A stretch of DNA of 46,922 bases. Origin: a virus. Made by a program: the position numbers and the translations under genes. The stretch lies in the IMG/VR virus record IMGVR_UViG_3300010388_000235, positions 1 to 46,922 of that record; one strand, written 5' to 3'. This document shows, piece after piece, positions 1 through 46,922 of this stretch. Positions within the stretch are counted from its first letter, which is position 1; every line of letters begins with the position of its first letter. Below the pieces are notes generated by a model. The model did no database searches, was not told where the DNA came from, and worked only from the letters and a program-made list of their open reading frames with translations.

Positions 1-3000
1 AGCTATTTTCGATCACCGACTCAATGTCAGGTACGATCTTTAGCGTCAACGATATTTCTGGTATTCCTTCAATCGAAGTTATTGACACTGGTGCTGTTAA
101 GATTGCCGAAACTTTTGGCTCTGTTGCTATTGGTGCGAATACACTAATAAACCACAAGCTATATGTCAATGGAAATACTCTGTTCACTAATGCTACATTT
201 AATAATGGAGCTACACTTACAAATAAATCTCGTTTAAGTTTTAAAACACTTAACGGCAACACAGTGTTCATGGAACAACAAGACGATGACAATTTCGTCT
301 TGTATACAACAACGCCAACTGGTGCTTCTAGGCCAGTATTTGCTGTATATGCCAATACAAACACATCAAACCTGAATATTGTCATTCCACTACAATTGAG
401 TGACAAACTTGTTGCTAATGGCTCTACTGGTTCTGCTGGTCAAGTATTGACTTCAAGTGGTAGTGGTGTATATTGGGGCGCTGCTGGATCAGGCGGTGGT
501 TCATATACCTTCAGCACTGGATTGACAAACACCTCAAATACCATTACAGTTAATGCTGCCTATATCGCAACGATTACATCAAACAATGCTTCGTTCGCAA
601 ATAGTGCTTCGTTTGTATACGGTAAGCAAGAGAGTCAACTGAGTGTTGCTGCGGCTACAACTGCTAACAACTCGACATACCTTGATGGTCGTACATGGGC
701 AACACCATTTGCTATCGGCTCTACAGTAGCAAACACTGGTGCCTTCACAACTCTCACTGCTTCAGCTAATGTCAATCTTGACAGTGGTACTCTGTTTGTT
801 GATGCAACCACAAATCGTGTTGGTATCGGTATAACCACTCCTAATACACAATTCCATATAAGTTCTGTAGGTGCCAATGGCACAACATTAATGATAGAAC
901 ACCCAGATGCAAACAAATATCCAGCTATCGTTTTTAATAGTTTTGGTGGTGCTGCTGGTGATTTATCATGTATTGTTGCCGATACAAGAAGAACTACTGG
1001 TGATTTTGGATCAGCACTTCATGGTTTGATTTATCGTAGCGGTAGATCAACATTAGGAAATCATTCATTCTTGAATTCTGCCAATACCGTGCAGATGGTT
1101 ATTACAGAAGCTGGCAATGTCGGTATCGGAACCACATCGCCAGCAGGTGAGTTGGATGTTTCAAGTTCTGGTGAACCTGATATCTATCTATCTAGACGTG
1201 GGCTTGCTAATAACCATGGTGCGTCTGGTGTTGGTCAGATTTATTTTAGAGATGCTAATAACGCATATAATACTGCTTCGATTCAATCTGTTGGTTATAT
1301 GCCGGGTAATAATGGCGTTTTAACATTTAAGACTACGAACGCTGGTACTCTTACTGAACGTATGCGTATCAATGAAGATGGCAATGTTGGTATTGGTTCT
1401 ACATCTGCTCCTACCAAGCTATTCGTCAACGGTCATATGTCTGTTGCTAATGGTTTCGGTATCTATGCAAACGGTGTGCTTGGTGCTAATGGTCTAGTCT
1501 TGACTTCAAATGGCACATCTCTATATTGGGGATCAGTTAGTGCTTCTGGTGGCGGTGGTTTCACTGGCAACACAGTATCTGCTAACTCGACAATTGTCAA
1601 GAACCAAAGCTATGCGGTAAACGCAACTGCTGGTTGGGTTACAATGTCGTTGCCAAGCACAGTTGCAACTGGTGATATCTTTATTGTACACACATATGGC
1701 GGCAACACAAGAATTCTAAACAACTCTATCAATATCATGGATATTGGTACTGGTAATGATCTTGTGCTTGAGAACGGTGAAACCGTGTGGCTTCAGGCTG
1801 TCAATGCAACTTCTGTTGATATTCTATTCACATACCCTGCTGGCGGCACACCAACAATGGTAGCTAATGCAGTATTTGCAACAACTGCGAACAACTCTTT
1901 GTTTGCCTATGGTAAGCAAGAAAGTCAACTGTCTGTTGCATCTGCTGTTACAGTGAGTGGCACTGTTGCAACATCAAACAATGCCTCATTCCTAAATGGT
2001 AGAATTTGGGAAACTGCTGGTGCTATTGGTTCAACAGTAGCTAACACTGGTGCCTTCACAACCCTAACAGCTTCTGCTAACGTCAACTTTGACAGTGGTA
2101 CTCTGTTTGTTAATGGTCCTTCTAATCGTGTTGGTATTGGTACCACAACACCAGCAACATCGCTAGATATTACTGGTGTACAGTCATTGCGTGGATATGG
2201 TAGTGCTACAGGCATTAACATGTACTCTTATCGTGGTACTGCTGTATCTCCTACGATAGTCCAAGCTGGTGATACTTTAGGTGCTATGGCTTTTTATGGT
2301 TGGGATGGCGATCAGGATACCCTTGGATCATTTATTATATCGACAGTGGAAGCAGGTGTTGGTAACAACGTCATGCCGTCTGATTTGCAATTCTGGACAA
2401 ATCAGGGATCAACATTACCATCACAAAGAATGACAATTGCTGGTTCTGGTAATGTTGGTATTGGTAACACAGTACCCGGTCAGAGACTTCAGGTTGACGG
2501 CTCTGTTGGTATCAAGAATGCTCTTATTGCTAATGGTGTAATTGGTGCTAATGGAACTGTTCTTACATCAAATGGTTCTACAATTTATTGGGGAACTGTT
2601 TCTGCTGGTGGTGGCACAACAACAAACGCTGTTACATTTAATAACGGTGGTACAGGAGATGCAAGTGGTACTACATTTAATGGTAGTGCTGCTAGAACTA
2701 TTAGCTATAATACAGTGGGCGCTCCATCAACAACAGGCACTGGTGCATCTGGTTCATGGTCTATTCTTGCTGCTAATGCTACATTCTCTACAACTGCTAA
2801 CAACTCTCTTCGTTTCAATGGTAAGCAAGAATCTCAGCTATCAGTAGCAAATGCTGTGTTCGCTACAACTGCTAACAACTCACTAAGATTTAATGGCAAG
2901 CAAGAATCTCAGTTGTCAGTTGCCAATGCTGTGTTCGCTGATACTGCGAACAATGCTCTTCGTTTCAACGGTAAACAAGAAGCTCAGCTAAGCGTTGCAT

Positions 3001-3812
3001 CTGCTGCACAATTAACAACAACAAGAGCTATTGGTGATGTTAACTTCAACGGCACTGCTGCTATTGTTCCTGAAAGAATTCTTTACAAGGATACTAGAGC
3101 CACAAATTACAATCCAGCAACTTATCCGGGTGTTACCGTTCATCTAAAAACAAACGGTACGGATGGATTGACTGATGGGGGCAGCTTCCACGGTGTTCTA
3201 AATGTAATGCAGTGGTCTGATACAACAGGTGGTAATGATCACCAATTGGCATTCACTGATAACAATAACATGTGGCTCCGTCAATCTACAAATAGCACTG
3301 CATGGGGCGCATGGGCACAAGTACTTACTTCTACAGTAACCAATCAAAACTTACGTGTGAATTCACTTGGTGTTGGTACTGCTGCTTCTGGTACTGCTGG
3401 TGAAATTCGTGCAACAGACAACATCACAGCGTACTACTCAGATGAACGTCTGAAGAATATTGAAGGTACTATACCAAATCCAATTGAAAAGATAAAGCAA
3501 CTTTCTGGTGTGTATTATCGTGCAAATGAGATTGCTGCTTCATATGGATACACAAATGACAAAAAGCAAATTGGTGTAATTGCACAAGAAGTAGAGGCTG
3601 TTCTTCCAGAAATCGTGGTTGCGGCACCATTTGATATCGGTCAAGATGATGACGGTAATGAATATAGCATATCAGGTGAGAACTACAAGACTGTTCAATA
3701 TGAAAAAATGGTACCACTTCTTATCGAAGCAATCAAGGACCAACAATCACAGATTGATGAGTTGAAACAACTGGTCAAAACTTTAATAAATAAGGAAGAT
3801 AATAATGCCTGA
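1..3812 (+). CDS. Tail fibre protein with C-terminal S74 chaperone (5' partial)
   Basis: Trimeric tail-fibre/receptor-binding protein, cut at its 5' end by the window edge. The frame is open from base 3 and the residues before the first ATG (base 24) continue fibre-like sequence, so that ATG is probably internal. At least 1262 residues are present. Visible repeats are VGIGTTTP-type fibre motifs, three copies of a GxNGxxLTSNGxxxYWG motif, and five copies of GKQESQL (bases 621, 1911, 2820, 2895, 2970), the last three being 75-base tandem units. The final 124 residues form a peptidase S74 intramolecular chaperone (SDERLKNI at 3438, then GVIAQEVEAVLPE) ending in a short coiled coil. In that family the domain directs trimerisation and cleaves itself off just before the Ser of SDERLK. 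Which receptor it binds cannot be told. Confidence 0.9.
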   Translation, partial: LFSITDSMSGTIFSVNDISGIPSIEVIDTGAVKIAETFGSVAIGANTLINHKLYVNGNTLFTNATFNNGATLTNKSRLSFKTLNGNTVFMEQQDDDNFVLYTTTPTGASRPVFAVYANTNTSNLNIVIPLQLSDKLVANGSTGSAGQVLTSSGSGVYWGAAGSGGGSYTFSTGLTNTSNTITVNAAYIATITSNNASFANSASFVYGKQESQLSVAAATTANNSTYLDGRTWATPFAIGSTVANTGAFTTLTASANVNLDSGTLFVDATTNRVGIGITTPNTQFHISSVGANGTTLMIEHPDANKYPAIVFNSFGGAAGDLSCIVADTRRTTGDFGSALHGLIYRSGRSTLGNHSFLNSANTVQMVITEAGNVGIGTTSPAGELDVSSSGEPDIYLSRRGLANNHGASGVGQIYFRDANNAYNTASIQSVGYMPGNNGVLTFKTTNAGTLTERMRINEDGNVGIGSTSAPTKLFVNGHMSVANGFGIYANGVLGANGLVLTSNGTSLYWGSVSASGGGGFTGNTVSANSTIVKNQSYAVNATAGWVTMSLPSTVATGDIFIVHTYGGNTRILNNSINIMDIGTGNDLVLENGETVWLQAVNATSVDILFTYPAGGTPTMVANAVFATTANNSLFAYGKQESQLSVASAVTVSGTVATSNNASFLNGRIWETAGAIGSTVANTGAFTTLTASANVNFDSGTLFVNGPSNRVGIGTTTPATSLDITGVQSLRGYGSATGINMYSYRGTAVSPTIVQAGDTLGAMAFYGWDGDQDTLGSFIISTVEAGVGNNVMPSDLQFWTNQGSTLPSQRMTIAGSGNVGIGNTVPGQRLQVDGSVGIKNALIANGVIGANGTVLTSNGSTIYWGTVSAGGGTTTNAVTFNNGGTGDASGTTFNGSAARTISYNTVGAPSTTGTGASGSWSILAANATFSTTANNSLRFNGKQESQLSVANAVFATTANNSLRFNGKQESQLSVANAVFADTANNALRFNGKQEAQLSVASAAQLTTTRAIGDVNFNGTAAIVPERILYKDTRATNYNPATYPGVTVHLKTNGTDGLTDGGSFHGVLNVMQWSDTTGGNDHQLAFTDNNNMWLRQSTNSTAWGAWAQVLTSTVTNQNLRVNSLGVGTAASGTAGEIRATDNITAYYSDERLKNIEGTIPNPIEKIKQLSGVYYRANEIAASYGYTNDKKQIGVIAQEVEAVLPEIVVAAPFDIGQDDDGNEYSISGENYKTVQYEKMVPLLIEAIKDQQSQIDELKQLVKTLINKEDNNA

Positions 3813-3954
3813 TGTTACATTGAAAACAGTAATCGCAAGCGTGTCTGTTCCTATCGCTAATAATGCTACATTTGCATATGGCAAGCAGGAAAGTCAATTA
3901 GTAGTTAAATCAGCAACTGATAATATCGTATATAATGTTGCGATGGGTTCATAA
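3805..3954 (+). CDS. Tiny ORF carrying the fibre GKQESQL repeat
   Basis: A 49-residue ORF whose ATG lies inside the last codons of the fibre gene (8-base overlap) behind a good ribosome site (AAGGAAG). Its middle, NNATFAYGKQESQL, matches the repeat found five times in the upstream fibre. It ends 9 bases before the next gene's ATG. It may be a real small virion or fibre-associated protein, or the remnant of a fibre gene left after recombination. No known family is recognised. Confidence 0.6.
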   Translation: MPDVTLKTVIASVSVPIANNATFAYGKQESQLVVKSATDNIVYNVAMGS

Positions 3955-3963
3955 GAGGTAAAA

Positions 3964-6882
3964 ATGGCAAAGAAATTAATTAGAGATTATGTGTTTACTC
4001 CGGGTGTTGCTGGTGCTGGATTCATTAGAATTCCCGGCAGATATGCCATGGATCAAGTATTGGTTGTTACTAATGGTACAAGAAATATTACCAACTATTC
4101 CTTTGCTGATTCAACATACACAGGAACAACTGCTGTCTTTACTGCTGGTAACTTGGCAAACGTTTTCCCAACTATCACACAGAGAGAAGACGGATATACA
4201 ACTATCACGTTTGCCGTCTCTACTGTTGGACAGAATGCCGCTGATGACCTATTGATTTATGTCGAAGGTGCTGCTAATGAAGATGCAACATCATTCAGAC
4301 CATGGAATTTTGGTACAGACGCTATTGAGCGTATGCGTGTATCAAATCCAGAATCACTTATCGATGCTGACTTTGAATACGGTCTACAGCCAACTAAGTG
4401 GGCAGGTTTTGGTACTGTCAAGGGTTATCCTAGCGTTTATGAACTTCCCGGTGTCGATCTAGAAGTACAGCGAGTTAATACAGACTTCACCACAACTAGC
4501 ACAAACAACAGCCTTATCAATGTAACCTTTACTGGTCCTCACGGTTTGGCTAATGGACAAGCGGTCAACATATCTGGTCTACTGTCATCTGTTGCTGGTT
4601 TCAGTAAGGCAGATGGTACATTTGTTATTTTTAATGTTGGCGCAAACGTTGTTCAATACTTTGCCAGAGGACAAGTAGGTACTTCAAACGGACAATCACT
4701 ATTTACTCCTGATACCGTGGCCAAACGTGGTGGTATCTATACAAACGCATCTATTCCTGTTGCGAGTGCCGCAAGTAACGGTGCAAACCCATCAGTGATT
4801 ACTTTGAACTTCACAAACCCGCATGGTCTATTGCCCGGCACAACTATTCATGCTATTGTTGCTTCTGGTACAAACGCACCACTTGCAACAGGTCCATTCA
4901 TTGTACAGTCTGTTCCAACACTGACTTCATTGACATATGTTGCCCGTCCCGGCGCTGTTGTTACGTCACCTGCAACTGTTACTCTATATGCTGTTTCAAA
5001 TGCCACACTGACACATAGATATCAGGATGGTGGTGTTATTCTTGCAACCAAGTCACCAACATATGGTTCAACGGTTGTTAGACAGAGTAAGAAGTATTTC
5101 CGTTATCAGTCTGGTAAGGGCTTCCTATGGTCATCAGGTACTCTATTCAAGCCGAACTATGATGTTCGCTCAGTAACAGCTTCTGGTACTGCTGGTGGTT
5201 CGACCATTACGATTCAAACTGATGAAATCGATCATGGTGTACAGGTAGGTGCATATGTCACGCTATCAGGTGTTACAACTTCTGGATATAATGACACCTA
5301 CATCGTAAATGGTGTAGTTGATGACTATACCTTTACTGTTCTAGCAAAAACCACACTTGGCTCTGCAACACCAATTCTTGATACTGCTACTAACATTGCC
5401 GTTAATGCGTGGACAGGCTCTTCTGTTCGTGCTGGTATGTTTGATGATCAGAATGGTTTATTCTGGGAATATGATGGCAGAACATTGTATGTCGTGAGAC
5501 GTTCTTCTGTTCAACAAATCACAGGTACAGTTTCAGCTAATCAAAACTCAAGTCAAATTGTTGGATTAAACACAAGATTTTTATCACAAGTAAGAAACAA
5601 TGACAAGGTTGTTGTCAGAGGTATGACACACATGGTAACTCAGGTTGCCAATAACTCTCATATGTTTGTCACACCAGACTACAGAGGCGTTACCGCAGAC
5701 GGTATTAAGGCAAGCTTGGTGAGAGAGCAAAGAGTGCCACAATCACAGTTTAATCTTGACAAGCTTGACGGAACTGGTCCTAGTGGATTTAATGTCGATC
5801 TTAACAAGATGCAAATGATCGGTATGCAATTCTCGTGGTATGGTGCAGGTTTCATTGATTTCATGATGAGAGGACCAAACGGCAATTGGGTATTCGCTCA
5901 TAGAATGAAGAACAACAACGTAAATACAGAAGCATATATGCGTTCTGGTAACTTACCTGTTCGCTACTCAATTGAAAATGATAATCCATTTACATCTTTG
6001 ACTGCAAACGTAACCAACTCAGACACTTCTATTCCTGTTGCTGATTTGACTTTCTTCCCATCAAACGGAACTGTCTATATCGATAATGAGTTGATCAGCT
6101 ATACTGGTAGAAGCACAACTGCTGGTTCTGGAAACCTAACTGGTGCTACTCGTGCGGCTACAATGACACAGTTTGTATCTGGAAACAACTACGTTCTTTC
6201 ATGCGGTACTGCAAATGCTCACTACAGTGGTACAGGTGTTATTATCGTAAATAATACTTGTTCACCTACACTAAGCCATTGGGGTTCTGCTCTAGTTATG
6301 GATGGTGGATTTGATGAAGATCGTGGTTACATCTTTAACTATCAAAGAACAAGTATGAACTTGACAACCACTAACCAAACAGCATTCATGATTCGTCTTG
6401 CTCCATCAGTTAAGAACTCACAGGTTGGTGCTCTTGGTGCAAAAGACCTTCTAAATCGTTCTCAGCTACTCCTAAACGCTATTGGTATTGCTGTAAGTAA
6501 TGGTGCAAATACTGGTGCAGTTGTTGTTGAAGGTGTTCTTAATCCAAAGAACTATTCGGCAGCGGTTTGGACTTCACTTGCTAATGAATCACTTGGTGGT
6601 CAGCCAAGCTTCTCACAGGTAGCTAATAGCTTTACCTTTAGTACTGGTACTTTTGCTGTTCCCGGCGAACAGGTATTCGCTTTCACTGGTCCTACTGCAA
6701 ATGGTGCTGGTGCTGTTAATGACCGTCTTGATCTTACATCACTGAAAGAACTTACTGGTGCTCCACTTGGCGGCGACTTTAGATATCCAGATGGTTCTGA
6801 CGTTCTTGCGATTAATGTTCGTCTAACAAATGGTACTGCACAAGGACACGTTTTGCTTCGTTGGTCTGAAGCTCAGGCATAA
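3964..6882 (+). CDS. Large virion structural (tail/fibre-associated) protein
   Basis: A 972-residue protein starting at an ATG 4 bases after an AAGAGGT ribosome site. It has no enzymatic motif. It is rich in Asn/Thr/Gly/Val, with repeated beta-type modules: PHGLxxG-type motifs (TFTGPHGLANGQAV and NFTNPHGLLPGTTI), and a YIDNELISYTGR...LTGATRA motif common in large structural proteins of T4-like phages. The N-terminus (KLIRDYVFTPGVAGAGFIRIPGRY) also resembles such proteins. The position between fibre genes and the neck genes suggests a baseplate-peripheral or fibre-connecting role. The exact structure is not known to me. Confidence 0.75.
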   Translation: MAKKLIRDYVFTPGVAGAGFIRIPGRYAMDQVLVVTNGTRNITNYSFADSTYTGTTAVFTAGNLANVFPTITQREDGYTTITFAVSTVGQNAADDLLIYVEGAANEDATSFRPWNFGTDAIERMRVSNPESLIDADFEYGLQPTKWAGFGTVKGYPSVYELPGVDLEVQRVNTDFTTTSTNNSLINVTFTGPHGLANGQAVNISGLLSSVAGFSKADGTFVIFNVGANVVQYFARGQVGTSNGQSLFTPDTVAKRGGIYTNASIPVASAASNGANPSVITLNFTNPHGLLPGTTIHAIVASGTNAPLATGPFIVQSVPTLTSLTYVARPGAVVTSPATVTLYAVSNATLTHRYQDGGVILATKSPTYGSTVVRQSKKYFRYQSGKGFLWSSGTLFKPNYDVRSVTASGTAGGSTITIQTDEIDHGVQVGAYVTLSGVTTSGYNDTYIVNGVVDDYTFTVLAKTTLGSATPILDTATNIAVNAWTGSSVRAGMFDDQNGLFWEYDGRTLYVVRRSSVQQITGTVSANQNSSQIVGLNTRFLSQVRNNDKVVVRGMTHMVTQVANNSHMFVTPDYRGVTADGIKASLVREQRVPQSQFNLDKLDGTGPSGFNVDLNKMQMIGMQFSWYGAGFIDFMMRGPNGNWVFAHRMKNNNVNTEAYMRSGNLPVRYSIENDNPFTSLTANVTNSDTSIPVADLTFFPSNGTVYIDNELISYTGRSTTAGSGNLTGATRAATMTQFVSGNNYVLSCGTANAHYSGTGVIIVNNTCSPTLSHWGSALVMDGGFDEDRGYIFNYQRTSMNLTTTNQTAFMIRLAPSVKNSQVGALGAKDLLNRSQLLLNAIGIAVSNGANTGAVVVEGVLNPKNYSAAVWTSLANESLGGQPSFSQVANSFTFSTGTFAVPGEQVFAFTGPTANGAGAVNDRLDLTSLKELTGAPLGGDFRYPDGSDVLAINVRLTNGTAQGHVLLRWSEAQA

Positions 6883-6885
6883 ATA
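6878..6885 (+). promoter_or_regulatory. Possible T4-type late promoter (7/8)
   Basis: CATAAATA differs from the T4 late consensus TATAAATA only at the first base and lies 31 bases before the ATG at 6917. It overlaps the stop codon of the preceding gene, so chance cannot be excluded. Confidence 0.4.
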
Positions 6886-6916
6886 AACATAGAAATATAT
6901 TCGGAAAAGGTGGAAT

Positions 6917-7819
6917 ATGACATATACATTTGGTGGTGAAGTTACTGATAAATCGGCAGTTGTGCGTCTTGAAGATGATGTAGTGGTCAACGTAATTGTT
7001 GCGCCACCAACTGAACCTGCACAGGATGGCTGCTATCTTGTTGACATTTCTGATGGAAAGTTCTGCAACATTGGATGGGTATGGAATGGAACAGAATTTT
7101 ATGATCCTAATCCACAGCCATTTCCAGAGCCTGTTCAAACAGATGTTATAACAATTGGCGATACTATCAATGAATTAGTTTCATCAAATCCTGAAGCTGC
7201 TAAAATTCATGATCATGTTTATGTCAACGGTGTTATGGTTCGTGAGGACATTTCTATCTGCCTACCAGAAGCAGCCTCTGTATTATCATTACTTAAAGAG
7301 AACTTTCCAGATTCTGATGTGAACTTTGAGAGTGTACCAACAAACTTCATTGGAACATATGACGACTATAGGCCACCATATACCAATGAATCTATTAGTT
7401 GGTATGAAATGGCATCTCCATCAAAAGAACTCCTAGAGAAATATCAAGTCACTGAAGAAATGTATCCAGATATATACTCTTGGTATGGACTGAAGCATAA
7501 TATTGTCACAAAAGAAATTATGCTGAAAGTAGTTTTTAAAGGATCATCACTTGACGCTTCTTTACTACCAATAATTCCAAATATTGAAAATGCTTTCTTT
7601 GCAAGACTACACAGAATTAATGGCACGATTGAACCATATGTTGATTGTTATGTCAACTTAGAAGAACAACAGATTATTGATTTCTGTGCAACTCATAACA
7701 TTCCATACACTTCTGTTCAAGATAAGCCCGGTTTTACTTGGGTGTATGGTATTACATTTAATAGTGAAACCAAAGAAATTATCACGGTCAAAACATACAG
7801 AAGAGTTATCGGTGACTAA
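6917..7819 (+). CDS. Putative tail-fibre-region structural protein
   Basis: A 300-residue protein preceded by AAAGGTGG. The first ~75 residues (VVRLEDDVVVNVIVAPP, then DGCYLVDISDGKFCNIGWVWNG) resemble a short N-terminal module seen in tail-fibre-region proteins of T4-like phages. The rest is unfamiliar: a DHVYVNGVMV segment and an acidic, aromatic C-terminal half ending TYRRVIGD. No signal peptide or membrane segment is visible. Context suggests a tail accessory or fibre-assembly protein; this is inference. Confidence 0.7.
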   Translation: MTYTFGGEVTDKSAVVRLEDDVVVNVIVAPPTEPAQDGCYLVDISDGKFCNIGWVWNGTEFYDPNPQPFPEPVQTDVITIGDTINELVSSNPEAAKIHDHVYVNGVMVREDISICLPEAASVLSLLKENFPDSDVNFESVPTNFIGTYDDYRPPYTNESISWYEMASPSKELLEKYQVTEEMYPDIYSWYGLKHNIVTKEIMLKVVFKGSSLDASLLPIIPNIENAFFARLHRINGTIEPYVDCYVNLEEQQIIDFCATHNIPYTSVQDKPGFTWVYGITFNSETKEIITVKTYRRVIGD

Positions 7820-7943
7820 AAAATTGTCTGACAAAGATATTAAAGAAATAGACAAAAAATTTTGGAGCACTATTGCTTTAGAAAAAACATATCATAAGAT
7901 TTACGAATGCAACTATCAACCAAAAAGCGAAGATAAGAAGTAA
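7812..7943 (+). CDS. Tiny basic ORF, GTG start
   Basis: A 43-residue, lysine-rich protein (VTKKLSDKDIKEIDKKFW at its N-terminus). The GTG start lies 8 bases inside the end of the upstream gene, behind AGAAGAG, and the TAA stop overlaps the ATG of the next gene (TAATG). The frame is open further upstream, but that part is out of frame with, and fully inside, the preceding gene, so the GTG is the likely start. Function unknown. Confidence 0.6.
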   Translation: MTKKLSDKDIKEIDKKFWSTIALEKTYHKIYECNYQPKSEDKK

Positions 7944-10342
7944 TGGCAACAAAATATATCTTTCTACGTAGTGGAACAGTATGGCAAATACCTACTGATT
8001 ATGACCCAACAGTCGCAGCCACTTTTTGGTGTATTGGCGGCGGTGGCGGCGGTGGTAGAAGAACTAGTGGTACGGCAACAACTGGTGGCGGTGGCGGCGG
8101 TGGCGGCGCTCTATCTACATCATCAATTACACTAGTAGCTGGCGCACCTTTATTTTATTCAATTGGTGCTGCTGGTGCTGGTGCTTCGTCAAATTCTACT
8201 GATGGTGGAACTGGTGGCGACACTTGGATAAACTGGAATACTTCTACAAATACTTCTACAAATACTCCACCAACATCAACTGGAACTGGTATTCTTGCAA
8301 AAGGTGGTGCTGGTGGTAGTGGTGCTTCTAGCGGAAATGGTGGAGCAGGTGGCGCTGCTGCTAGTGGATTTGGTACTACAAAAACTAGTGGTGGCACTGG
8401 TGGAACAGCAACTTCTCATGGCGGCGGTGGCGGTGGCGCTGCTGGTAATGATTCTGGTAATGGTTCTAATGGCGGCGGCTCATCAAGTTACGGTGGCGGC
8501 GGTGGAGGTGGTATATTCAGTGGCGGCGGTACTTCTACATCAACGACAGGTGGTTTTGGCGGTCAAAGTCTTGCTGGCGCTTTTGCTTCTGGTGGTGCAG
8601 CTAATGCTAGTGGTGGTAGTGGTGCCGTAGGTGGCGGTGGCGGCGGTGGTGGTGGTTCTACTAACTCTACTACTGCTGGTAGTGGCGGCGCTGGTGGTGC
8701 TAATACAGCAACCTTTAGTACTATTAGTGGACAAATTGGACCGTCTGGTGGCGGTGGTGGCGGCGGCGGATCATTGACTGCTGCTACACAAGTCGGTGGT
8801 CAAGCTGATCTTGCTGGTTCTGGTGGCGGTGGTGGCGGTGGTTCTGCTGCTGCTGGTTCTAGTGCATCAAGTGGTGGCAGAGGTGGTGCTGGCGCAATTA
8901 TTGTACTTTACACAGTAAAACCAAGCGTAAAGACTGTTGTTCTTACTTCAGGTTCAACATGGACTGTTCCAAATGATTGGACCAATTCTGGTGCCAGTAT
9001 TATAGCAATAGGCGGTGGCGGCGGTGGTGCTCGTGCTGCTTTTGGTGGTGGCGCTGGTGGCGGTGGTGGCGGATTGTCTGCCGTTACTAATATGAATTTA
9101 TTTGGTGGACTATCAACAGGAAATACTCTTTACTATTCAATTGGTGCTGGTGGTTCTGGCGCAACTGCAAACAACACTTCTGGTGCTACTGGTGGTGATA
9201 CTTGGGTAAATAGAGTATCAGCATCAATACCTTCATCAGCTACTGATGGTGCTCTTGCAAAAGGTGGCGTTGGTGGTGCTGCTGGCACTGGTGGCGCTGG
9301 TGGCGCTGGTGGTGCTGCTGCATCTGGCGTAGGAACTATAAAGAAAAGTGGTGGTGCTGGTGGTAATGCTCAAGGAACAGCTTCGTTTAGTGGTTCTGGT
9401 GGTGGTTCTGCTGCATCTATTCTAAGTGATGGTGGTGCTGGCACTTCAGGAAGTATTAACTTATATGGTTATAATGGCGGTCAAGGTGGCGGCGTAAATG
9501 GTCCTGCAACTGGTCTGGCTGGATTACAAAGTGCTGGGGGTCTTGGATTTGATGGTAAACCACAAGGTACAAGTACTGGTGGTTTCGGTGCAACATTAAA
9601 CGCTGGTGGTGCTGGCGTAGCTGGTCCCGGCATAGAGTTCACAGCTACTATTGGTGGATCATCATATGGTTCTGGCGGTGGTGGTGCTGGCGGTGCTGTT
9701 AGTGGCGGCACTGGTAGTGCAGGTGCATTTATTGGCGGCGGCGGTGGCGGTGGCGGTGGTTCTGCTTCTGCTGGTACTAGTGGAAGTGGTGCTGCTGGTG
9801 CTGCTGGTGCTATTATCATTCAGTATATACCATATACATTACCACAATATACAGCAAATGGTTCAATAACATTGTATAATATCCAACAAGTATTTGGTGG
9901 TTCTACTCCTATCAGCTTAAGTGAATACTATGCTGGTGGTGTATACGTGTATGCTGGTGCTACTGGCACAAATGGTGCAATCCCAACAAGTGGAGCTATT
10001 AGCATTAGCAACTTCTATGGTGCATCTGCAACCCCACCACTATCAGTGAGCGCAACAAATGTTAGTGGTCAAAATCTTGGATTTCCACTATGTGGTTCGG
10101 TCTCTGGCTCAACATCTACTACAGTTACTGGCGGTGCCTCACCATTTACATATGCATGGTCACAGCTTTCTGGTGATTCGATGAGTATTAATAGTACTAC
10201 TGCACAAAATCCATCATTTTCAGCTACTGTATGTGATGGCGCTGGAATTGCAGCCGTATGGCAAGTTGTAGTGACAGATTCAAATAACAACACTGCATCT
10301 GATACAATTACAGTTGATCTTGATTACGTTTCTACACAATAA
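7943..10342 (+). CDS. Glycine-rich tail adhesin with two repeated modules
   Basis: A 799-residue protein. Two homologous modules follow each other: residues ~1-330 begin TKYIFLRSGTVWQIP and ~331-635 begin KTVVLTSGSTWTVPNDW. Each has a CIGGGGGGG or AIGGGGGGA strand followed by many poly-Gly blocks and ends GAGAIIVLY or GAAGAIIIQY. The poly-Gly layout is like phage tip adhesins that pack as polyglycine-II helices. Next comes a segment with YGASATPP, then a C-terminal Ig/PKD-like domain (SPFTYAWSQLSGDS, ending VTDSNNNTASDTITVDLDY). Likely a distal tail adhesin. The GGN-rich coding DNA is prone to recombination, which may vary host range. Confidence 0.75.
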   Translation: MATKYIFLRSGTVWQIPTDYDPTVAATFWCIGGGGGGGRRTSGTATTGGGGGGGGALSTSSITLVAGAPLFYSIGAAGAGASSNSTDGGTGGDTWINWNTSTNTSTNTPPTSTGTGILAKGGAGGSGASSGNGGAGGAAASGFGTTKTSGGTGGTATSHGGGGGGAAGNDSGNGSNGGGSSSYGGGGGGGIFSGGGTSTSTTGGFGGQSLAGAFASGGAANASGGSGAVGGGGGGGGGSTNSTTAGSGGAGGANTATFSTISGQIGPSGGGGGGGGSLTAATQVGGQADLAGSGGGGGGGSAAAGSSASSGGRGGAGAIIVLYTVKPSVKTVVLTSGSTWTVPNDWTNSGASIIAIGGGGGGARAAFGGGAGGGGGGLSAVTNMNLFGGLSTGNTLYYSIGAGGSGATANNTSGATGGDTWVNRVSASIPSSATDGALAKGGVGGAAGTGGAGGAGGAAASGVGTIKKSGGAGGNAQGTASFSGSGGGSAASILSDGGAGTSGSINLYGYNGGQGGGVNGPATGLAGLQSAGGLGFDGKPQGTSTGGFGATLNAGGAGVAGPGIEFTATIGGSSYGSGGGGAGGAVSGGTGSAGAFIGGGGGGGGGSASAGTSGSGAAGAAGAIIIQYIPYTLPQYTANGSITLYNIQQVFGGSTPISLSEYYAGGVYVYAGATGTNGAIPTSGAISISNFYGASATPPLSVSATNVSGQNLGFPLCGSVSGSTSTTVTGGASPFTYAWSQLSGDSMSINSTTAQNPSFSATVCDGAGIAAVWQVVVTDSNNNTASDTITVDLDYVSTQ

Positions 10343-10348
10343 TAAATA
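10341..10348 (+). promoter_or_regulatory. Possible T4-type late promoter (7/8)
   Basis: AATAAATA, one mismatch to TATAAATA, 21 bases before the gp13 ATG. It overlaps the stop codon of the adhesin gene. Confidence 0.35.
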
Positions 10349-10368
10349 CTAATAAACAAAGGTGTTAA

Positions 10369-11112
10369 ATGGCAGTACCAACAACAAGAAACGAATTCAA
10401 AGAGTATTGCTTACGCAAGCTAGGCAAACCTGTGATCGAAATCAACGTTGATGATGATCAGGTAGATGATCGTATTGATGAATCTCTTCGTTACTATTGG
10501 GACTATCACTTTGATGGTACTGAGAAAATTTACTATAAGCATCAAGTAACACAACAGAATATGACTGACAAATACATCACCATGCCAGAGAATATCATTG
10601 GTGCAGTGAGAGTGTTTCCTATTGCTGACCCTATGGTTCGCTCAGATGATCTATTCAACATTCGTTATCAGATTGCATTGAACGATCTATACACACTAAC
10701 TTCTGTTTCAATGGTTCCATATTATATGACCATGGAGCATCTTGCTCTTATTACAGAAATGCTTGTCGGTCAACAGCCAATTCGTTATAATAGACATAAG
10801 GACCGTCTATATGTCGATATGGATTGGGGTAAGATCAATGTCGGTGAATATCTTCTAGTTGAGGCATATGAAGTTATTGACCCTGATGAATGGACTGATG
10901 TTTGGGCTGATAGATGGCTTCAGAACTATGCTACTGCAAAGATCAAGTATCAGTGGGGATCAAACCTAACCAAGTTTAGTGGAATGTCATTGCCCGGCGG
11001 CGTACAGTTTAATGGTGAAAAGATTCTAGGTGACGCTCAGGCTGAAATCGAAAAGATGGAAGCAGAGATGATCAGTTCATATTCACTTCCGGTTTCAGAT
11101 ATGGTGGGATAA
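10369..11112 (+). CDS. gp13: Neck protein gp13 (head completion)
   Basis: A 247-residue head-completion/neck protein that, with gp14, forms the collar joining filled head to tail. The N-terminus TRNEFKEYCLRKLGKPVIEI followed by NVDDDQVDDRIDESLRYYWDYHFDGTEK is characteristic of T4-like gp13. The gene begins behind AAAGGTG and is followed 3 bases later by gp14, the same order as in T4. It is somewhat shorter than T4 gp13 (about 309 residues). Confidence 0.9.
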   Translation: MAVPTTRNEFKEYCLRKLGKPVIEINVDDDQVDDRIDESLRYYWDYHFDGTEKIYYKHQVTQQNMTDKYITMPENIIGAVRVFPIADPMVRSDDLFNIRYQIALNDLYTLTSVSMVPYYMTMEHLALITEMLVGQQPIRYNRHKDRLYVDMDWGKINVGEYLLVEAYEVIDPDEWTDVWADRWLQNYATAKIKYQWGSNLTKFSGMSLPGGVQFNGEKILGDAQAEIEKMEAEMISSYSLPVSDMVG

Positions 11113-35885: not shown

Positions 35886-36233
35886 ATGGGTGTTGATACT
35901 TATTTTATGACGATGTATGGCGTTAAGACTGATTGGTATGAGGATTTCAGTGACGCATACGAAGAAGCATATTCTGCTGATGGTTATCATGGTGCAAACC
36001 TACCACATGTCGTGCAAGATGGCATGATGGGTGAATATATGGTATTTGGTGTTTCTCTTCTAGAGACAGAGAGTATGCGTTGGGAAGCACCGTCTGGATT
36101 TGTCGAAGTGGACATTGGTGAACTTGACAAAGATCGTGAAGCGTATATAAAGCACTTCACTGAGACTTTCCCTGATTTTGCCCATGTGGTTGATAAACCA
36201 TGGAAAGTTATCTCGTTCGTCCATTACTCTTAA
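35886..36233 (+). CDS. Hypothetical protein between gp45 and gp44
   Basis: A 115-residue acidic/aromatic protein (MGVDTYFMTMYGVKTDWYED). The ATG at 35886 has GGAG 9 bases upstream; longer upstream starts would run into the terminator hairpin and are rejected. No recognised domain. It breaks the usual gp45-gp44 pair. Confidence 0.7.
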   Translation: MGVDTYFMTMYGVKTDWYEDFSDAYEEAYSADGYHGANLPHVVQDGMMGEYMVFGVSLLETESMRWEAPSGFVEVDIGELDKDREAYIKHFTETFPDFAHVVDKPWKVISFVHYS

Positions 36234-36242
36234 GGATATATT

Positions 36243-37184
36243 ATGTTAGAAGAATTTCTATGGACTGAGAAGCATCGCCCAAAAACCATTGACGAAACTA
36301 TCCTACCTGCTGAGATGAAAGAGACCTTTAAGGCTTTTGTCGAACAGAAAAATATTCCAAACCTTCTTCTCTCTGGTCCTGCTGGTTGCGGTAAGACCAC
36401 AGTAGCACGTGCTATGCTTGAAGAGCTTGGTGTTGATTATATTGTCATCAATGGTTCTATGAATGGCAACATCGATACACTACGTAATGAAATTATGAGG
36501 TTCGCTTCATCGATTTCGTTCACTGGTATGCGTAAGTATGTCATTCTGGATGAAGCAGACTACCTAAACCCTAACTCGACACAGCCAGCACTTCGTAACT
36601 TCATGGAAGAGTTTTCGAAGAATTGTGGCTTCATTCTGACATGCAACTTCAAGAACCGCATCATTGCTCCTATTGCCAATTCACGTTGTGTCAATATTGA
36701 CTTCAAGATTCCTAAGAAGGAACTTCCTGATCTTGCCAAGCAGATGATGAAGCGTTCATGCGCTATTCTTGAAGCTGAAGGCATTGAATATGACAAGCCT
36801 GTTATTGCTGAATTGCTCAAGAAGTATCACCCTGATTGGAGGCGTGTTATTGGTGAGCTACAGCGTTACAGCGCCACAGGACGCATTGACAGTGGTATCC
36901 TTGCTAATCTCAAGGAAACGTCTATCAAGACGCTTATTGGCTTCCTGAAGGACAAGGAATTCACCAATGCTCGTAAGTGGGTTGCAGAGAATTCTGACGC
37001 AGATAGTGTTGCTGTCTTCCGTACACTATATGATACTGCTAACGAACATGTAGCCAAGACTTCTGTACCACAGTTGGTATTGATCCTTGCTAAGTACCAG
37101 TATCAATCTGCATTCGTTGCTGATCATGAAATCAATCTGATGGCATGTCTAACAGAAATGATGGTTGAATTGGAATACCTATGA
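36243..37184 (+). CDS. gp44: Clamp loader large subunit gp44
   Basis: A 313-residue AAA+ ATPase (T4: 319) that opens and loads gp45. Motifs: WTEKHRPKTIDE N-terminus, Walker A GPAGCGKT (45-52), Walker B YVILDEADYL (99-108), sensor ILTCNF, and the SRC arginine-finger motif at 147-149. Preceded by AAGGATATATT, the recurrent local initiation signal. The TGA/ATG overlap with the next gene couples them. Confidence 0.95.
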   Translation: MLEEFLWTEKHRPKTIDETILPAEMKETFKAFVEQKNIPNLLLSGPAGCGKTTVARAMLEELGVDYIVINGSMNGNIDTLRNEIMRFASSISFTGMRKYVILDEADYLNPNSTQPALRNFMEEFSKNCGFILTCNFKNRIIAPIANSRCVNIDFKIPKKELPDLAKQMMKRSCAILEAEGIEYDKPVIAELLKKYHPDWRRVIGELQRYSATGRIDSGILANLKETSIKTLIGFLKDKEFTNARKWVAENSDADSVAVFRTLYDTANEHVAKTSVPQLVLILAKYQYQSAFVADHEINLMACLTEMMVELEYL

Positions 37185-37390
37185 GCTTCTGGAAGCGTAA
37201 GAAGTGTCCTCTATGCAAGAGCGTGATCAAGCCTAAGCATAAGACAACTACATTCCATATCGATACGGCTGAAGGTGTGTTGGAAATCCATGACGTATGT
37301 CCTAAGTGCACATACGTCATGGAGCAGTCTGCTAATGTCCTTGAAAAGAATGGAATGCTTGAAGAGGACGAAGATGATGATGACGATTGA
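37181..37390 (+). CDS. Small zinc-ribbon-like protein
   Basis: A 69-residue protein, ATGA-overlapped with gp44. Two CPxC knuckles (KKCPLCKS near residue 9 and DVCPKCTYV near 39) are spaced as in a zinc ribbon, followed by an acidic tail of Glu/Asp. It could bind nucleic acid or the clamp loader; not recognised further. Confidence 0.7.
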   Translation: MSFWKRKKCPLCKSVIKPKHKTTTFHIDTAEGVLEIHDVCPKCTYVMEQSANVLEKNGMLEEDEDDDDD

Positions 37391-37553
37391 AGAACGCAAC
37401 CGTATCATCATGGAAAATCTGCAAAAGTTTACTGAAGAAATGACTTCTGGTCCAGATGCAAAAGAAAAGTGTCGTGCTTATCTGATCGGGATTGGTATAT
37501 ATAACGAAGATGGTTCGTTACACAAAGACTATGGTGGTGAAGATGAATTATGA
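37377..37553 (+). CDS. Small hypothetical protein
   Basis: A 58-residue acidic helical protein (MTIEERNRIIMENLQKFTEE core). Three consecutive in-frame ATG codons (37374, 37377, 37380) stand behind GAGG; I choose the middle one for spacing. The C-terminus (GIYNEDGSLHKDYGGEDEL) resembles the 'GIxxxDGxLxxxYGGE' ends seen in other phage small proteins. Function unknown. Confidence 0.6.
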   Translation: MMTIEERNRIIMENLQKFTEEMTSGPDAKEKCRAYLIGIGIYNEDGSLHKDYGGEDEL

Positions 37554-37716
37554 TGATGAAATAATCGTAAAAGACCTCTTGTTCTTAATGCGTGAAAGAC
37601 GTATGCTAAACCGTAAGATCGAAGCTTTGAGCGTAAAGGTTCAGAAGCGTTTTGAAGAAGTTGATGGTCTCACCGAATACTTCATTGAGCAATCAAAAAG
37701 GATATTAGATGAGTAA
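37543..37716 (+). CDS. Small coiled-coil protein
   Basis: A 57-residue protein from the ATG at 37543 (NYDDEIIVKDLLFLMRERRM...), almost entirely one predicted helix with heptad-like hydrophobics. It overlaps its neighbours on both sides. It lies between clamp-loader genes gp44 and gp62; function unknown. Confidence 0.6.
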   Translation: MNYDDEIIVKDLLFLMRERRMLNRKIEALSVKVQKRFEEVDGLTEYFIEQSKRILDE

Positions 37717-38095
37717 CCCATTCGACTATGTGACTTCCATCACCTATGGAAAGAATGATATGATGACAGGCACAGAAAACGATGAGTTAGCTGAGTCTGG
37801 ATACAACCCATATCTAACAAACAAGTCATTGTCATATTTCCCAGACACCCTACTGTATGCAAACGAAATCAACGTGCTGAACCATGTTGATAACAGACTA
37901 CAATATTCATATCTACTAAATAGTATCAGGCCCAAAAAAAGATTTTCGAAATGGGTGAAGAAACAGGAAGATATCGATATTGAGGCTGTAAAACAGTATT
38001 ACAAGTACAGCACAGCGAAAGCTGAAGCCGCCTTATCCTTACTTTCGCCGCAACAGATAAATGAAATAAAAAGAAGGTTGAATAAAGGTGGATAA
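37709..38095 (+). CDS. gp62: Clamp loader small subunit gp62
   Basis: A 128-residue protein with NPFDYVTSITYGKND, YNPYLTNKSLSYFPDTLLYANEIN and RLQYSYLLNSIRPKKRFSKW, the pattern of the short gp62 of T4-like phages; T4 gp62 is longer (187). It completes the gp44/gp62 loader. It sits directly before regA as in T4. The AAAAAGGATATTAG ribosome site is of the local type. Confidence 0.85.
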   Translation: MSNPFDYVTSITYGKNDMMTGTENDELAESGYNPYLTNKSLSYFPDTLLYANEINVLNHVDNRLQYSYLLNSIRPKKRFSKWVKKQEDIDIEAVKQYYKYSTAKAEAALSLLSPQQINEIKRRLNKGG

Positions 38096-38097
38096 CA

Positions 38098-38496
38098 ATG
38101 GGAAATATTATTGACACTCTTTTAGAGGTAAAGCTAGGCGAAGAAGATGACTTCCTAAAGGTTAGAGAAACGCTTACTCGTATCGGCATCGCATCACGCA
38201 AAGACAAGACGCTATATCAGTCTTGCCACATCCTGCACAAGCAGGGAAGATTTTACATAGTTCATTTCAAGGAAATGTTTGCTATTGACGGCAAGCCAAC
38301 TAACTTTTCTGATGAAGACAAGGGACGTAGAAACACGATTGCTAATCTGCTACAAGATTGGGGATTGCTTAAGATCGTTGACCAAGATCAATCAGAAGAA
38401 GTTCGTTCTCCTATGAACCAGATCAAGATTCTTTCTCATAAAGAAAAGAACGAATGGCACTTGACACCAAAGTATAATATTGGTAAGAAAAAGTAA
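38098..38496 (+). CDS. regA: RegA translational repressor
   Basis: A 132-residue RNA-binding repressor (T4: 122) that blocks ribosome binding on early mRNAs. The ETLTRIGIASRKDKTLYQSC, HILHKQGRFYIVHFKEMFAI and RRNTIANLLQDWGLLKI segments are typical. It follows gp62, as in T4. Targets are A/U-rich start regions; the recurrent AAGGATATATTATG starts in this phage are candidate sites, by inference. Confidence 0.93.
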   Translation: MGNIIDTLLEVKLGEEDDFLKVRETLTRIGIASRKDKTLYQSCHILHKQGRFYIVHFKEMFAIDGKPTNFSDEDKGRRNTIANLLQDWGLLKIVDQDQSEEVRSPMNQIKILSHKEKNEWHLTPKYNIGKKK

Positions 38497-38514
38497 CACT
38501 AAAGGATTTTTGTT

Positions 38515-38679
38515 ATGACAACACCTAAAGAAGCCAGAGGCGGCACCTTTGCTCCTGCTGATATTAAACTGATCAAGATGTTGATCATGGCGCATGTGTC
38601 TGATTCTAGTCTGACCCTTACTCCGTCAGAGGAACAGCAAGCCATTAATTTATTGCATCGACTAAATCGTATCGGCTAA
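38515..38679 (+). CDS. Small hypothetical protein after regA
   Basis: A 54-residue ORF (MTTPKEARGGTFAPADIKLI; ends QQAINLLHRLNRIG). AAAGGA lies 7-8 bases before the ATG, which follows regA by 18 bases. No domain recognised. It ends immediately before the promoter of the tRNA-Arg gene. Confidence 0.65.
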   Translation: MTTPKEARGGTFAPADIKLIKMLIMAHVSDSSLTLTPSEEQQAINLLHRLNRIG

Positions 38680-38687
38680 AAAAACAC

Positions 38688-38716
38688 TTGACAATCTGAT
38701 GGCGAATCGCTAAATA
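38688..38716 (+). promoter_or_regulatory. Possible sigma70-type promoter for tRNA-Arg
   Basis: Perfect TTGACA (38688-38693), 17-base spacer, then TAAATA (38711-38716) as a weak -10. It ends 10 bases before the tRNA, so the transcript would begin nearly at the mature 5' end. Confidence 0.55.
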
Positions 38717-38726
38717 GATTGTCTAA

Positions 38727-38803
38727 GCTCCCATAGCTCAACTGGATAGAGTACGAGTCTTCTAAACTTGGGGTTGCAGGTTCGAACCCTGCTGGGAGCA
38801 CCA
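38727..38803 (+). tRNA. tRNA-Arg (anticodon TCT)
   Basis: A 77-base cloverleaf: acceptor GCTCCCA/TGGGAGC, D arm with AGCTCAACTGGATAGAGT, anticodon loop CTTCTAA with TCT, T arm with GGTTCGAACC, and an encoded CCA. It reads AGA codons, often enriched in A/T-richer phages compared with their hosts. Confidence 0.95.
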
Positions 38804-38819
38804 TTTTGAAAGATATATT

Positions 38820-39062
38820 ATGAAGCCTGTTCCGTGCATTGTTTGTGATAAAGTTCTTGAGGAAGCAATTCCCGATAGCAAAAATCAGCCATACAAGGCT
38901 ACATCATTCATGTCACAGGGACATTATGGATCAACCTTTTTTGATCCTATGGATGGCTCATATATCGAGATTAACGTATGTGACGATTGCCTGACAAAGG
39001 CAAAGTCAGAGAAAAAAATCGTACATTATGTTGGAAAGAAAGTCGTATATTATGATGAATAA
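38820..39062 (+). CDS. Small CxxC zinc-binding protein
   Basis: An 80-residue protein: PCIVCDK at the start and VCDDCLTKAK late form two CxxC pairs, with a GHYGSTFFDPMDGSYIEINV core between them. This layout is common in short phage proteins that bind zinc. Preceded by GAAAGATATATT. Overlaps the following lipoprotein gene. Confidence 0.7.
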   Translation: MKPVPCIVCDKVLEEAIPDSKNQPYKATSFMSQGHYGSTFFDPMDGSYIEINVCDDCLTKAKSEKKIVHYVGKKVVYYDE

Positions 39063-39342
39063 AGTGAAATTTTTGATTCCTCTAGGAATGCTTGTTGCAC
39101 TATCTGCATGTGATGGCGCTACTAAGGAACAACAAGATAGTTCCATGTATTATACACAGTCTCAGTTGCCTGAAGGCTGTAATCTGCACTTTGCAGGAAA
39201 AGTGATCCTTGAAGGTGAATATTACAAATCACGTATCTTCTATGTGAAATGTAATGACACTACTACTGTATCAAAAAGCCATGAAGTCCGTCAGGGCAAG
39301 AACACACATACAGAAACTGATGTTACTGTAAGTAACAATTAA
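39052..39342 (+). CDS. Predicted lipoprotein
   Basis: A 96-residue protein with a lipoprotein signal: KVKFLIPLGMLVALSAC, lipobox LSAC with Cys 20, then a DGATKEQQDSS linker. The mature part has a second Cys pair (EGCNLHF and VKCNDT) and a polar, Thr-rich end. Likely exported and anchored in the host envelope; a phage lipoprotein can act in superinfection exclusion or receptor blocking, which is inference. Start may be the second Met. Confidence 0.75.
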   Translation: MMNKVKFLIPLGMLVALSACDGATKEQQDSSMYYTQSQLPEGCNLHFAGKVILEGEYYKSRIFYVKCNDTTTVSKSHEVRQGKNTHTETDVTVSNN

Positions 39343-39352
39343 AGGATATATT

Positions 39353-39892
39353 ATGTTTGAAGAACATTTACCAAAGATGGTGCCATCTGTTATTTTCAAG
39401 ACACGTGTTCGTGATATTGCAGTAGGTGGCGACAATCCATATCGTTGGGAAGACGTAACCACGTTTGATCTATTCGCAAATAAGCGTGTAGTTCTATTCT
39501 CGCTGCCCGGCGCATTTACCCCAACATGTTCAACATATCAGCTACCAAATTTTGAAAAGAACGCACTTGATTTCTATCATCTTGGTATCGACAACATTTA
39601 CTGTATTTCAGTGAATGATGCATTCGTCATGAACGCATGGGCAAAGCAACAGTGTCTTGAAGAAGTTGTTGTAATCCCTGATGGTTCTGCTGAGTTCACA
39701 TCACAGATGCGTATGCTTGTTGCTAAGGACAATCTTGGTTTCGGTATTCGTTCATGGCGCTATGCTGCTATTATCAATAACGGCAAGATTGAAAAGTGGT
39801 TCATTGAACCAAACAAGGCAGACAACATTGATACTGACCCATACGGTGTTTCATCTCCTGAAAACATCTTGGAATGGTTGAAGAACAACTAA
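39353..39892 (+). CDS. Peroxiredoxin (Prx5 type)
   Basis: A 179-residue thiol peroxidase. The active-site motif LPGAFTPTCS holds Thr 56 and peroxidatic Cys 59, and GIRSWRYAAIINNGKIEKWF contains the catalytic Arg. The Prx5/AhpC-E type family reduces H2O2 or alkyl peroxides with thioredoxin or glutaredoxin. A second Cys (QQCLEE) may be the resolving one. Complete and probably active. An AAAGGATATATT start signal precedes it. Confidence 0.9.
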   Translation: MFEEHLPKMVPSVIFKTRVRDIAVGGDNPYRWEDVTTFDLFANKRVVLFSLPGAFTPTCSTYQLPNFEKNALDFYHLGIDNIYCISVNDAFVMNAWAKQQCLEEVVVIPDGSAEFTSQMRMLVAKDNLGFGIRSWRYAAIINNGKIEKWFIEPNKADNIDTDPYGVSSPENILEWLKNN

Positions 39893-39897
39893 GTAAC

Positions 39898-39990
39898 GCA
39901 CCCGTAGCTCAATGGTAGAGCGGTGGTTTTATAAACCATGATCCCCAGATTAGGGAACGGTTGTAGGTTCGAGTCCTACCGGGTGCACCA
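39898..39990 (+). tRNA. tRNA with TAT anticodon and long variable region
   Basis: A 93-base tRNA: acceptor GCACCCG/CGGGTGC, D stem GCTC/GAGC with AATGGTA loop, anticodon stem GTGGT/ACCAT around TTTATAA (anticodon TAT at 39930-39932, Ile AUA), T stem GTAGG/CCTAC with TTCGAGT, CCA encoded. The variable region is 23 bases (39940-39962) with a TCCC/GGGA stem, as in class II tRNAs (Leu, Ser, Tyr), which is unusual for Ile. Amino-acid identity is therefore uncertain. Confidence 0.85.
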
Positions 39991-42022: not shown

Positions 42023-42499
42023 ATGAAGAATTTTGTTATTGGTGTTGCACTAGCTCTTTCAGCAATTGTTGCTACCCCTGCGATGGCAAGTGATTTTGCT
42101 GGTCCTCGTGTAGAAGTCACTGCTGGTGCAGATGATGTTACTCGTGGTGTAGACCCAACTGACGTAACTTATGGTATTGGTGCTGGTTATGACCGCCAGT
42201 ATGGTAAGGTAGTCATTGGTGTTGAAGCTGGTATTGACAATGCATTTGATCGCCGTGACATTGCCGTTGGTGCACGTCTTGGCTACGTTCTAAACGAGAA
42301 CGTCCTTGCATACACCAAGATTGGATACTCAAACTTCAAGCCTACTGAACGCCTCACCCTTGAAGGTCTGCGTGTTGGTGGTGGACTTGAAGTCAATGTG
42401 GTCGGTCCCGTCTACACAAAGGTAGAGTACCGCTACACAGACTTTGAAGGTGTTTCTGGTAAGCACGGTGGTCTTGTTGGTGTAGGATATCGCTTCTGA
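42023..42499 (+). CDS. Outer-membrane beta-barrel protein with signal peptide
   Basis: A 158-residue protein with a clear Sec signal (MKNFVIGVALALSAIVATPA, cleavage AMA|SD after residue 22). The mature part is a series of alternating-pattern strands (VEVTAGADDV, YGIGAGYDRQYG, VGARLGYVL, VLAYTKIGYSNF, VYTKVEYRYTDF) ending in VGVGYRF with C-terminal Phe, the BAM targeting signature. It resembles small OmpA/OmpW/opacity-type eight-strand barrels of Proteobacteria. It has its own promoter region and terminator. Probably acquired from a host and inserted into the outer membrane during infection. Confidence 0.85.
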   Translation: MKNFVIGVALALSAIVATPAMASDFAGPRVEVTAGADDVTRGVDPTDVTYGIGAGYDRQYGKVVIGVEAGIDNAFDRRDIAVGARLGYVLNENVLAYTKIGYSNFKPTERLTLEGLRVGGGLEVNVVGPVYTKVEYRYTDFEGVSGKHGGLVGVGYRF

Positions 42500-46685: not shown

Positions 46686-46878
46686 TGATAAAATCAGATA
46701 TCAATTGATGATAGAACTTGAAAATATTATTAATTTGACGGACAATCCTCTTTCTAATCCACTTGAAGTTGGGTTTCGTCATTCGCCACTTTCACCAAAA
46801 GAGCAAATTGACCGCTTGAAAGATGTGTGCTCTCATGTTAATCAGTGTGCACGTGCAGCATTGGGATGGAAACGATAA
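46675..46878 (+). CDS. Small hypothetical protein
   Basis: A 67-residue protein (EPDDKIRYQLMIELENIINL; ends QCARAALGWKR), mostly helical, AAGGAAC upstream. Its stop overlaps the next ATG. Function unknown. Confidence 0.6.
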   Translation: MEPDDKIRYQLMIELENIINLTDNPLSNPLEVGFRHSPLSPKEQIDRLKDVCSHVNQCARAALGWKR

Positions 46879-46922
46879 TGAACCTTGAACTTGAAGCCTA
46901 TGAAGGTGAGCTTAGAGAGCTT
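46878..46922 (+). CDS. 3'-truncated ORF at window end
   Basis: ATG in a TAATG overlap with the previous gene. The first 15 codons (MNLELEAYEGELREL) are open to the window edge. Only the start is visible, so nothing can be said of function. Confidence 0.5.
   Translation, partial: MNLELEAYEGELREL

Follow-up and report, generated by a model that had tools for sequence, protein, structure and literature searches.

What removed the pentamer CCWGG from a virus genome, and did it remove other words as well? This question is raised by the 46,922-base virus contig IMGVR_UViG_3300010388_000235 of IMG/VR, which was analysed over its whole length (hereafter, the window). The original prediction had claimed that CCWGG is wholly absent where a few tens of sites would be expected at about 40% G+C, that the effect is specific to this word, and that it reflects restriction counter-selection. 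The absence and the size of the expectation were both confirmed by machine count. At 40.9% G+C, the window contains 0 CCAGG, 0 CCTGG and 29 CCSGG, while the models put the expectation for CCWGG at 33-56. The expected number was 42.9 by the maximal-order Markov model and 56 by the order-2 Markov model; 500 shuffles of synonymous codons within genes gave 41.3 ± 4.4 (minimum 24), and a stricter shuffle, in which the dinucleotide at the codon boundary was also preserved, gave 32.5 ± 3.7 (minimum 23; n = 200). The codon usage around the missing word was also as described. All 27 Pro-Gly pairs are encoded with CCC (19) or CCG (8) and none with CCA or CCT, and proline outside these pairs is encoded by CCA or CCT in 416 of 462 cases. 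CCSGG, of which more than 25 sites had been claimed (the ten coordinates quoted all lie within 0-6 bases of real CCSGG), is in surplus, with 28 sites inside genes against 7.8 ± 2.5 in the codon shuffles.

The claim of specificity did not hold. A scan of IUPAC palindromes and asymmetric words in the window, on both strands, identified seven further words that are fully absent, which makes CCWGG one of at least eight. The two sets of sites are as follows.

1302..39983 (first site 1302, last site 39979), no strand assigned: 29 CCSGG sites, in surplus, one synonymous substitute for CCWGG, chiefly at Pro-Gly codon pairs
1..46922, both strands: zero CCWGG, RGATCY, CGCG, GASATC, SAGCTS, GCVTGC, CTSSAG and RCCGGY, about 311 expected by order-2 Markov

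Since some of the eight words overlap slightly, the summed expectation of about 311, against 0 observed, serves as a guide. The expected numbers of the seven additional words, by the order-2 Markov model and by the strict codon null, respectively, are 50 and 38.7 for RGATCY, 42 and 12.9 for CGCG, 41 and 34.6 for GASATC, 39 and 33.1 for SAGCTS, 42 and 15.2 for GCVTGC, 27 and 20.4 for CTSSAG, and 14 and 13.1 for RCCGGY. Each segment of 8-10 kb is free of all eight words, the accessory region at 38.8-46.9 kb among them. The boundaries of absence are sharp and Type II-like, as seen from the observed/expected numbers of neighbouring words: AGATCC (0/22) and AGATCT (0/23) versus AGATCA (45/58), AGATCG (28/22) and GGATCA (49/27); SAGCTS (0/39) versus SAGCTW (111/109), with CAGCTC (0/17) and CAGCTG (0/17) versus CAGCTA (39/27); and CTSSAG (0/27) versus CTSWAG (141/99), with CTCCAG (0/12) and CTGCAG (0/13) versus CTGAAG (72/46). 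The purged words are mostly compact or interrupted palindromes, the asymmetric GASATC being the exception in form. Among the best listed bipartite 3+4 patterns with a gap of 5-8 bases (Type I-like), none stood at zero, and the bipartite zero patterns that were seen are pieces of GGTNACC and GACNNNGTC. GCVBGC appeared as a single motif in the window, but the pooled records described below are better fitted by GCVTGC/GCABGC plus rarer G+C-rich words, and this signal may hide more than one specificity.

Could such zeros be a by-product of codon usage, of codon-pair bias or of a general avoidance of palindromes? The usage of proline, arginine and glycine codons is indeed biased, and contexts at codon boundaries, for instance KTAM, depart from the plain shuffle. 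However, CCWGG is zero in every codon frame (22.1, 4.3 and 15.0 expected per frame by codon shuffle), CGCG is likewise absent in all three frames, the zeros survive the null that preserves both codon usage and the codon-boundary dinucleotide, and relatives with similar proteins have the sites. AT-rich palindromes such as CATATG, GAATTC and GATATC occur at normal or raised numbers, and GASATC is not a palindrome at all. Codon bias was rejected by the strict null and a general dislike of palindromes by the AT-rich set, leaving this explanation with hardly any probability.

The prediction had also listed four sites as being free of avoidance. This was correct for GATC (198 observed/235 expected), GGNCC (42/51) and CCGG (35/35), but GANTC is moderately low (100/179). 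The same reduction of GANTC, to 0.54-0.61 of expectation with the site still present, was observed in the window and three relatives (G015, G016 and G019; see below). Of the other sites counted in the window, GTAC is not avoided (154/171) and GGCC is clearly low (22/62), while the controls GGWCC, GATC and GCWGC equal the expectation or lie within about 10% of it. Most of the other T4-like loci compared show nothing of the kind: when 61 of them were trimmed to 20 kb, 46 lacked any palindrome standing at zero against an expectation of 10 or more. Two pieces of the window cut in the same way have nine and six such palindromes, overlapping words being included in the count. Same-length regions of Stenotrophomonas phage DLP6 and Rhizobium phage RHph_I1_18 contain the main words of the window at normal numbers. 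Two of the 20-kb T4-like loci have several absent palindromes of their own, L366 with GATC (0/70), TCGA (0/27) and ACGT (0/20), and L323 with CGCG (0/28) and RGATCY (0/21).

How the sites were lost was examined at positions where a non-avoiding relative has identical amino acids and carries the site. For five words together, the window retains 0 of 1601 such sites (CCWGG 0/269, RGATCY 0/315, SAGCTS 0/239, CGCG 0/504 and CTSSAG 0/274), while the control words are retained at 73% (GGWCC), 59% (GCWGC), 46% (GATC) and 33% (TCGA) in the same comparison; these counts include positions common to many homologues, and the events are not independent. The 42 distinct CCWGG positions inferred to have been replaced have many outcomes; eight became CCSGG, with CCCGG as the most frequent product, and CCSGG is thus only one among several escape routes. 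Replacement under identical amino acids with varied outcomes indicates that the loss took place at the DNA level and was largely synonymous. The same data bear on a purely mutational origin, in which deamination after methylation (Dcm-like at CCWGG), or some other mutation bias, would have erased the sites without selection. Methylation hot spots are known to mutate in bacteria. Such a process, however, predicts an excess of the product, and CTWGG (both orientations) is below expectation, with 128 observed against 172 expected, on which ground a Dcm/deamination origin was rejected; the varied outcomes at the replaced CCWGG positions do not fit it, and exact zeros at eight unrelated words would not be produced by mutation bias. 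We consider this origin extremely improbable.

Relatives were located by using the UvsW-like, portal and other proteins as queries, giving ten records including the window. In core proteins G015 (93 kb), G016 (72.5 kb), G019, G020 and L329 are about 90-94% identical to the window, G017 and G018 are a near-identical pair at 70%, and G001 and G002 are more distant (about 50%). Since G019 and L329 are also identical across shared proteins, the near-duplicate pairs reduce the number of independent phages below ten. RGATCY and SAGCTS are at zero in all ten records, against about 490 and about 290 expected in sum, respectively. The other words differ by branch. CCWGG is zero in the window, G015 (0/81), G017 (0/113), G018, G020 and G001, but is present in G016 (24/75), G019 (4/18) and G002 (39/43, the normal level); CCSGG is in surplus in the records with zero CCWGG and not in G002. 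CGCG is zero in the window, G015, G016, G020 and L329, while G017 has 33 of 87 expected. RCCGGY depletion is limited to the window (0/14) and its sister branch (G016, 1/18), as against 28/20 in G015 and 45/43 in G017, and CGNNCG is purged in G017 (0/89) and G018 (0/39). A tree built from nine concatenated proteins placed G016 together with G019/L329 (76% support) among the records without CCWGG; with this moderate support, the simplest reading is that CCWGG was lost ancestrally and relaxed once later.

Pooling of the window, G015, G016 and G017 added ACTGGG (1/70), AGCGCT (0/34), CGATCG (0/22), CGTACG (0/25), AGGCCT (0/23) and GACGTC (0/25), and GGTNACC and GACNNNGTC also appear purged. The window by itself would be expected to hold fewer than about 12 of each, so their support comes from the pooled data, and some may be due to chance or be pieces of other words. 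The distant G002 (L086-L088) has a different multi-site purge, with AGCT (0/109), HGTACD (0/102) and RGATCY (0/53) at zero.

The distribution among records also bears on the suggestion that metagenome assembly or library preparation removed the site-bearing fragments. The records are all metagenome contigs and mostly fragments, but the same words are missing across records with different metagenome numbers, the genes keep long, unbroken reading frames in a conserved T4-like order, and other contigs of the same collection have normal site counts. An artefact was rejected because the purge is seen in several metagenomes, and its probability is negligible.

These observations altogether establish that at least eight site types are wholly absent, with sharp edges and regardless of frame, and that the absence is common to relatives and shows branch-specific loss and regain. 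Very probably, several Type II restriction-modification systems of the hosts had been cutting the DNA of this lineage, which escaped by elimination of the recognition sites. The counter-selection originally proposed for CCWGG thus stands in kind, the loss being mostly synonymous, at the DNA level in all frames, a trait of the phage lineage and reversible, but it was drawn too narrowly, with at least eight sites eliminated. In the mechanism we propose, several host systems would have cut the phage DNA over a long time, and the lineage would have removed the recognition sites, mostly by synonymous substitutions, instead of protecting its DNA, with selection operating on every site independently. 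A site would be purged while hosts with the matching enzyme matter, and would drift back once such hosts cease to matter. That host restriction enzymes were the agents, which enzymes they were and which host carried them are what we infer. No match to PF00145 (C5), PF02086 (D12) or PF00303 (thymidylate synthase/hydroxymethylase family) was found in the searched records, all of them fragments, making site removal plausible over DNA protection; PF01555 methyltransferase had no match within the clade, its sole match being in G002 and interrupted by stops.

Several points weigh against elimination under host restriction. The analysis yielded neither a host nor a specific matching restriction enzyme, EcoRII-type or other. 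The records are fragments, and a protecting enzyme could sit in the missing part. Such a large number of words is unusual, as is an asymmetric one (GASATC), and avoidance was seen in a survey mostly at orthodox Type II sites, not at Type I or IIG sites (PMC6286503).

A different source of cutting would be the phage itself, if its own sequence-specific nucleases against host or rival-phage DNA had driven the purge and the phage avoided the sites of its own weapons. T4-like phages encode endonucleases that break down host DNA, and many small open reading frames in the window have no assigned function. This alternative would require at least eight distinct specificities. No restriction-endonuclease family turned up among the scanned window proteins, though most of the small ones match nothing; two of the words, SAGCTS and RGATCY, match documented methyltransferase specificities, and the purged list differs between close relatives. 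We regard phage nucleases as an unlikely cause.

Elimination under host restriction has precedents. Avoidance of recognition sites was described in earlier work (Sharp 1986; Rocha 2001; both cited in PMC6286503), and the survey of Rusinov et al. (2018) showed that double-stranded DNA phages avoid recognition sites, most strongly the non-temperate ones. It counts a site as eliminated at an observed/expected ratio under 0.1 and an expectation above 15, and reports this for about one viral genome in ten but not where cytosines are hydroxymethylated (PMC6286503). Like the surveyed phages, the window has Type II sites eliminated at this numerical level: CCWGG, RGATCY, CGCG, GASATC, SAGCTS, GCVTGC and CTSSAG are all at 0 with 27-56 expected by order-2 Markov, and the strictest codon null gives expectations of 12.9 for CGCG and 15-39 for the other six, these Markov and codon-shuffle expectations differing from the compositional-bias formula of the survey. 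Unlike the surveyed phages, seven words with more than 15 expected, one of them asymmetric, are at exact zero in one 47-kb fragment, and the purged set shifts between close relatives. DLP6, the closest cultured relative by capsid protein, shares the T4-like gene order and has its own complete purge of GGCC (0/134 in its first 47 kb, L081), but unlike the window it contains CCWGG, RGATCY, CGCG, SAGCTS and CTSSAG at normal numbers.

Two bacteria offer parallels at the level of specificity. Beggiatoa leptomitoformis is a gammaproteobacterium. Its methyltransferase M.Ble402III has the specificity SAGCTS, the same six-base degenerate word that is missing from all ten records, and the organism also methylates CCNGG and has a predicted GCATGC system (PMC4675945, PMC5920184); these papers report methylation, not cutting. 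M.RsaIII of Rhodobacter blasticus 28/5 (alphaproteobacterium) has the specificity RGATCY, and the strain also methylates GTAC (PMC6256690), which parallels G002 without RGATCY and HGTACD but not the window, where GTAC is at a normal level; CCWGG or SAGCTS methylation is not reported for this strain (PMC6256690). For CTSSAG, and likewise for GASATC/GATSTC, nothing relevant was found in a literature search, REBASE being outside its reach.

It is an evenly balanced proposition that the purged words record which restriction enzymes the hosts carry. They would then point to a group of hosts that share an unusually large set of Type II enzymes, with at least two cutting specificities (palindromic CTSSAG and asymmetric GASATC) that are missing from the literature searched; the pooled relatives suggest about 10 more purged sites (those named above and others). 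Phages that escape restriction by site removal are already known, and discussion of them has mostly centred on one or a few sites; what is unusual here is the breadth of the purge, together with GASATC as an asymmetric word and CTSSAG as an undescribed one. In this lineage of large phages, seven or eight kinds of site, and probably more, are gone completely, and close relatives catch single sites in loss and regain. The restriction history is thus legible from an uncultivated virus, the word list being a fingerprint for finding the host by methylome and nominating enzyme specificities open to direct testing.

The virus itself resembles T4 in the content and order of its capsid, terminase, portal, tail and replication genes; in the capsid protein it shares 67% identity with Stenotrophomonas phage DLP6 and 65% with Pelagibacter phage Mosig. 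Since the listed cultured relatives have genomes of 141-252 kb, the window is very likely a fragment of the genome of an uncultivated T4-like myovirus. From the gene content and order, the phage is presumably virulent with double-stranded DNA. The genes are arranged as follows.

10369..23906, +: T4-like structural cluster, same order as DLP6
11116-11781, +: neck protein (structural cluster)
13242-14870, +: terminase large subunit (structural cluster)
14935-17073, +: tail sheath (structural cluster)
17101-17646, +: tail tube (structural cluster)
17668-19254, +: portal (structural cluster)
20665-21342, +: prohead protease (structural cluster)
21375-22466, +: scaffold (structural cluster)
22524-23906, +: major capsid protein (structural cluster)
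25716..38496, +: T4-like replication/repair cluster
25716-27224, +: UvsW-like helicase (replication/repair cluster)
28371-29417, +: gp47-like (replication/repair cluster)
29950-31653, +: gp46-like (replication/repair cluster)
36243-37184, +: clamp-loader large subunit (replication/repair cluster)
37709-38095, +: clamp loader A subunit (replication/repair cluster)
38098-38496, +: RegA translational regulator (replication/repair cluster)
38727-38803, +: tRNA-Arg (tct)
39353..39892, +: peroxiredoxin, host-like auxiliary gene, 71% identity to Rhizobiales copies
39898-39990, +: tRNA-Ile (tat)
42023..42499, +: outer-membrane beta-barrel protein with signal-like N terminus, distant best matches on Sphingomonadales plasmids (30-38%)

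The peroxiredoxin and the beta-barrel protein are weak hints that point to a host among the Alphaproteobacteria. The beta-barrel protein had zero matches in the phage collection and a single distant match (29%) among bacterial genome contigs, in a Spartobacteria metagenome-assembled genome. No photosynthesis genes were spotted by eye among the longer non-shared open reading frames of three relatives, leaving a cyanobacterial host without support. An 84% identical copy of the beta-barrel protein, an unusual phage cargo, is carried by L329. The window also includes an anti-defence gene (40954-41415, +) with a strong Pfam match to Tad3, the Type I Thoeris inhibitor (E 7e-40), and a 75% identical copy of this Tad3-like protein is present in G015.

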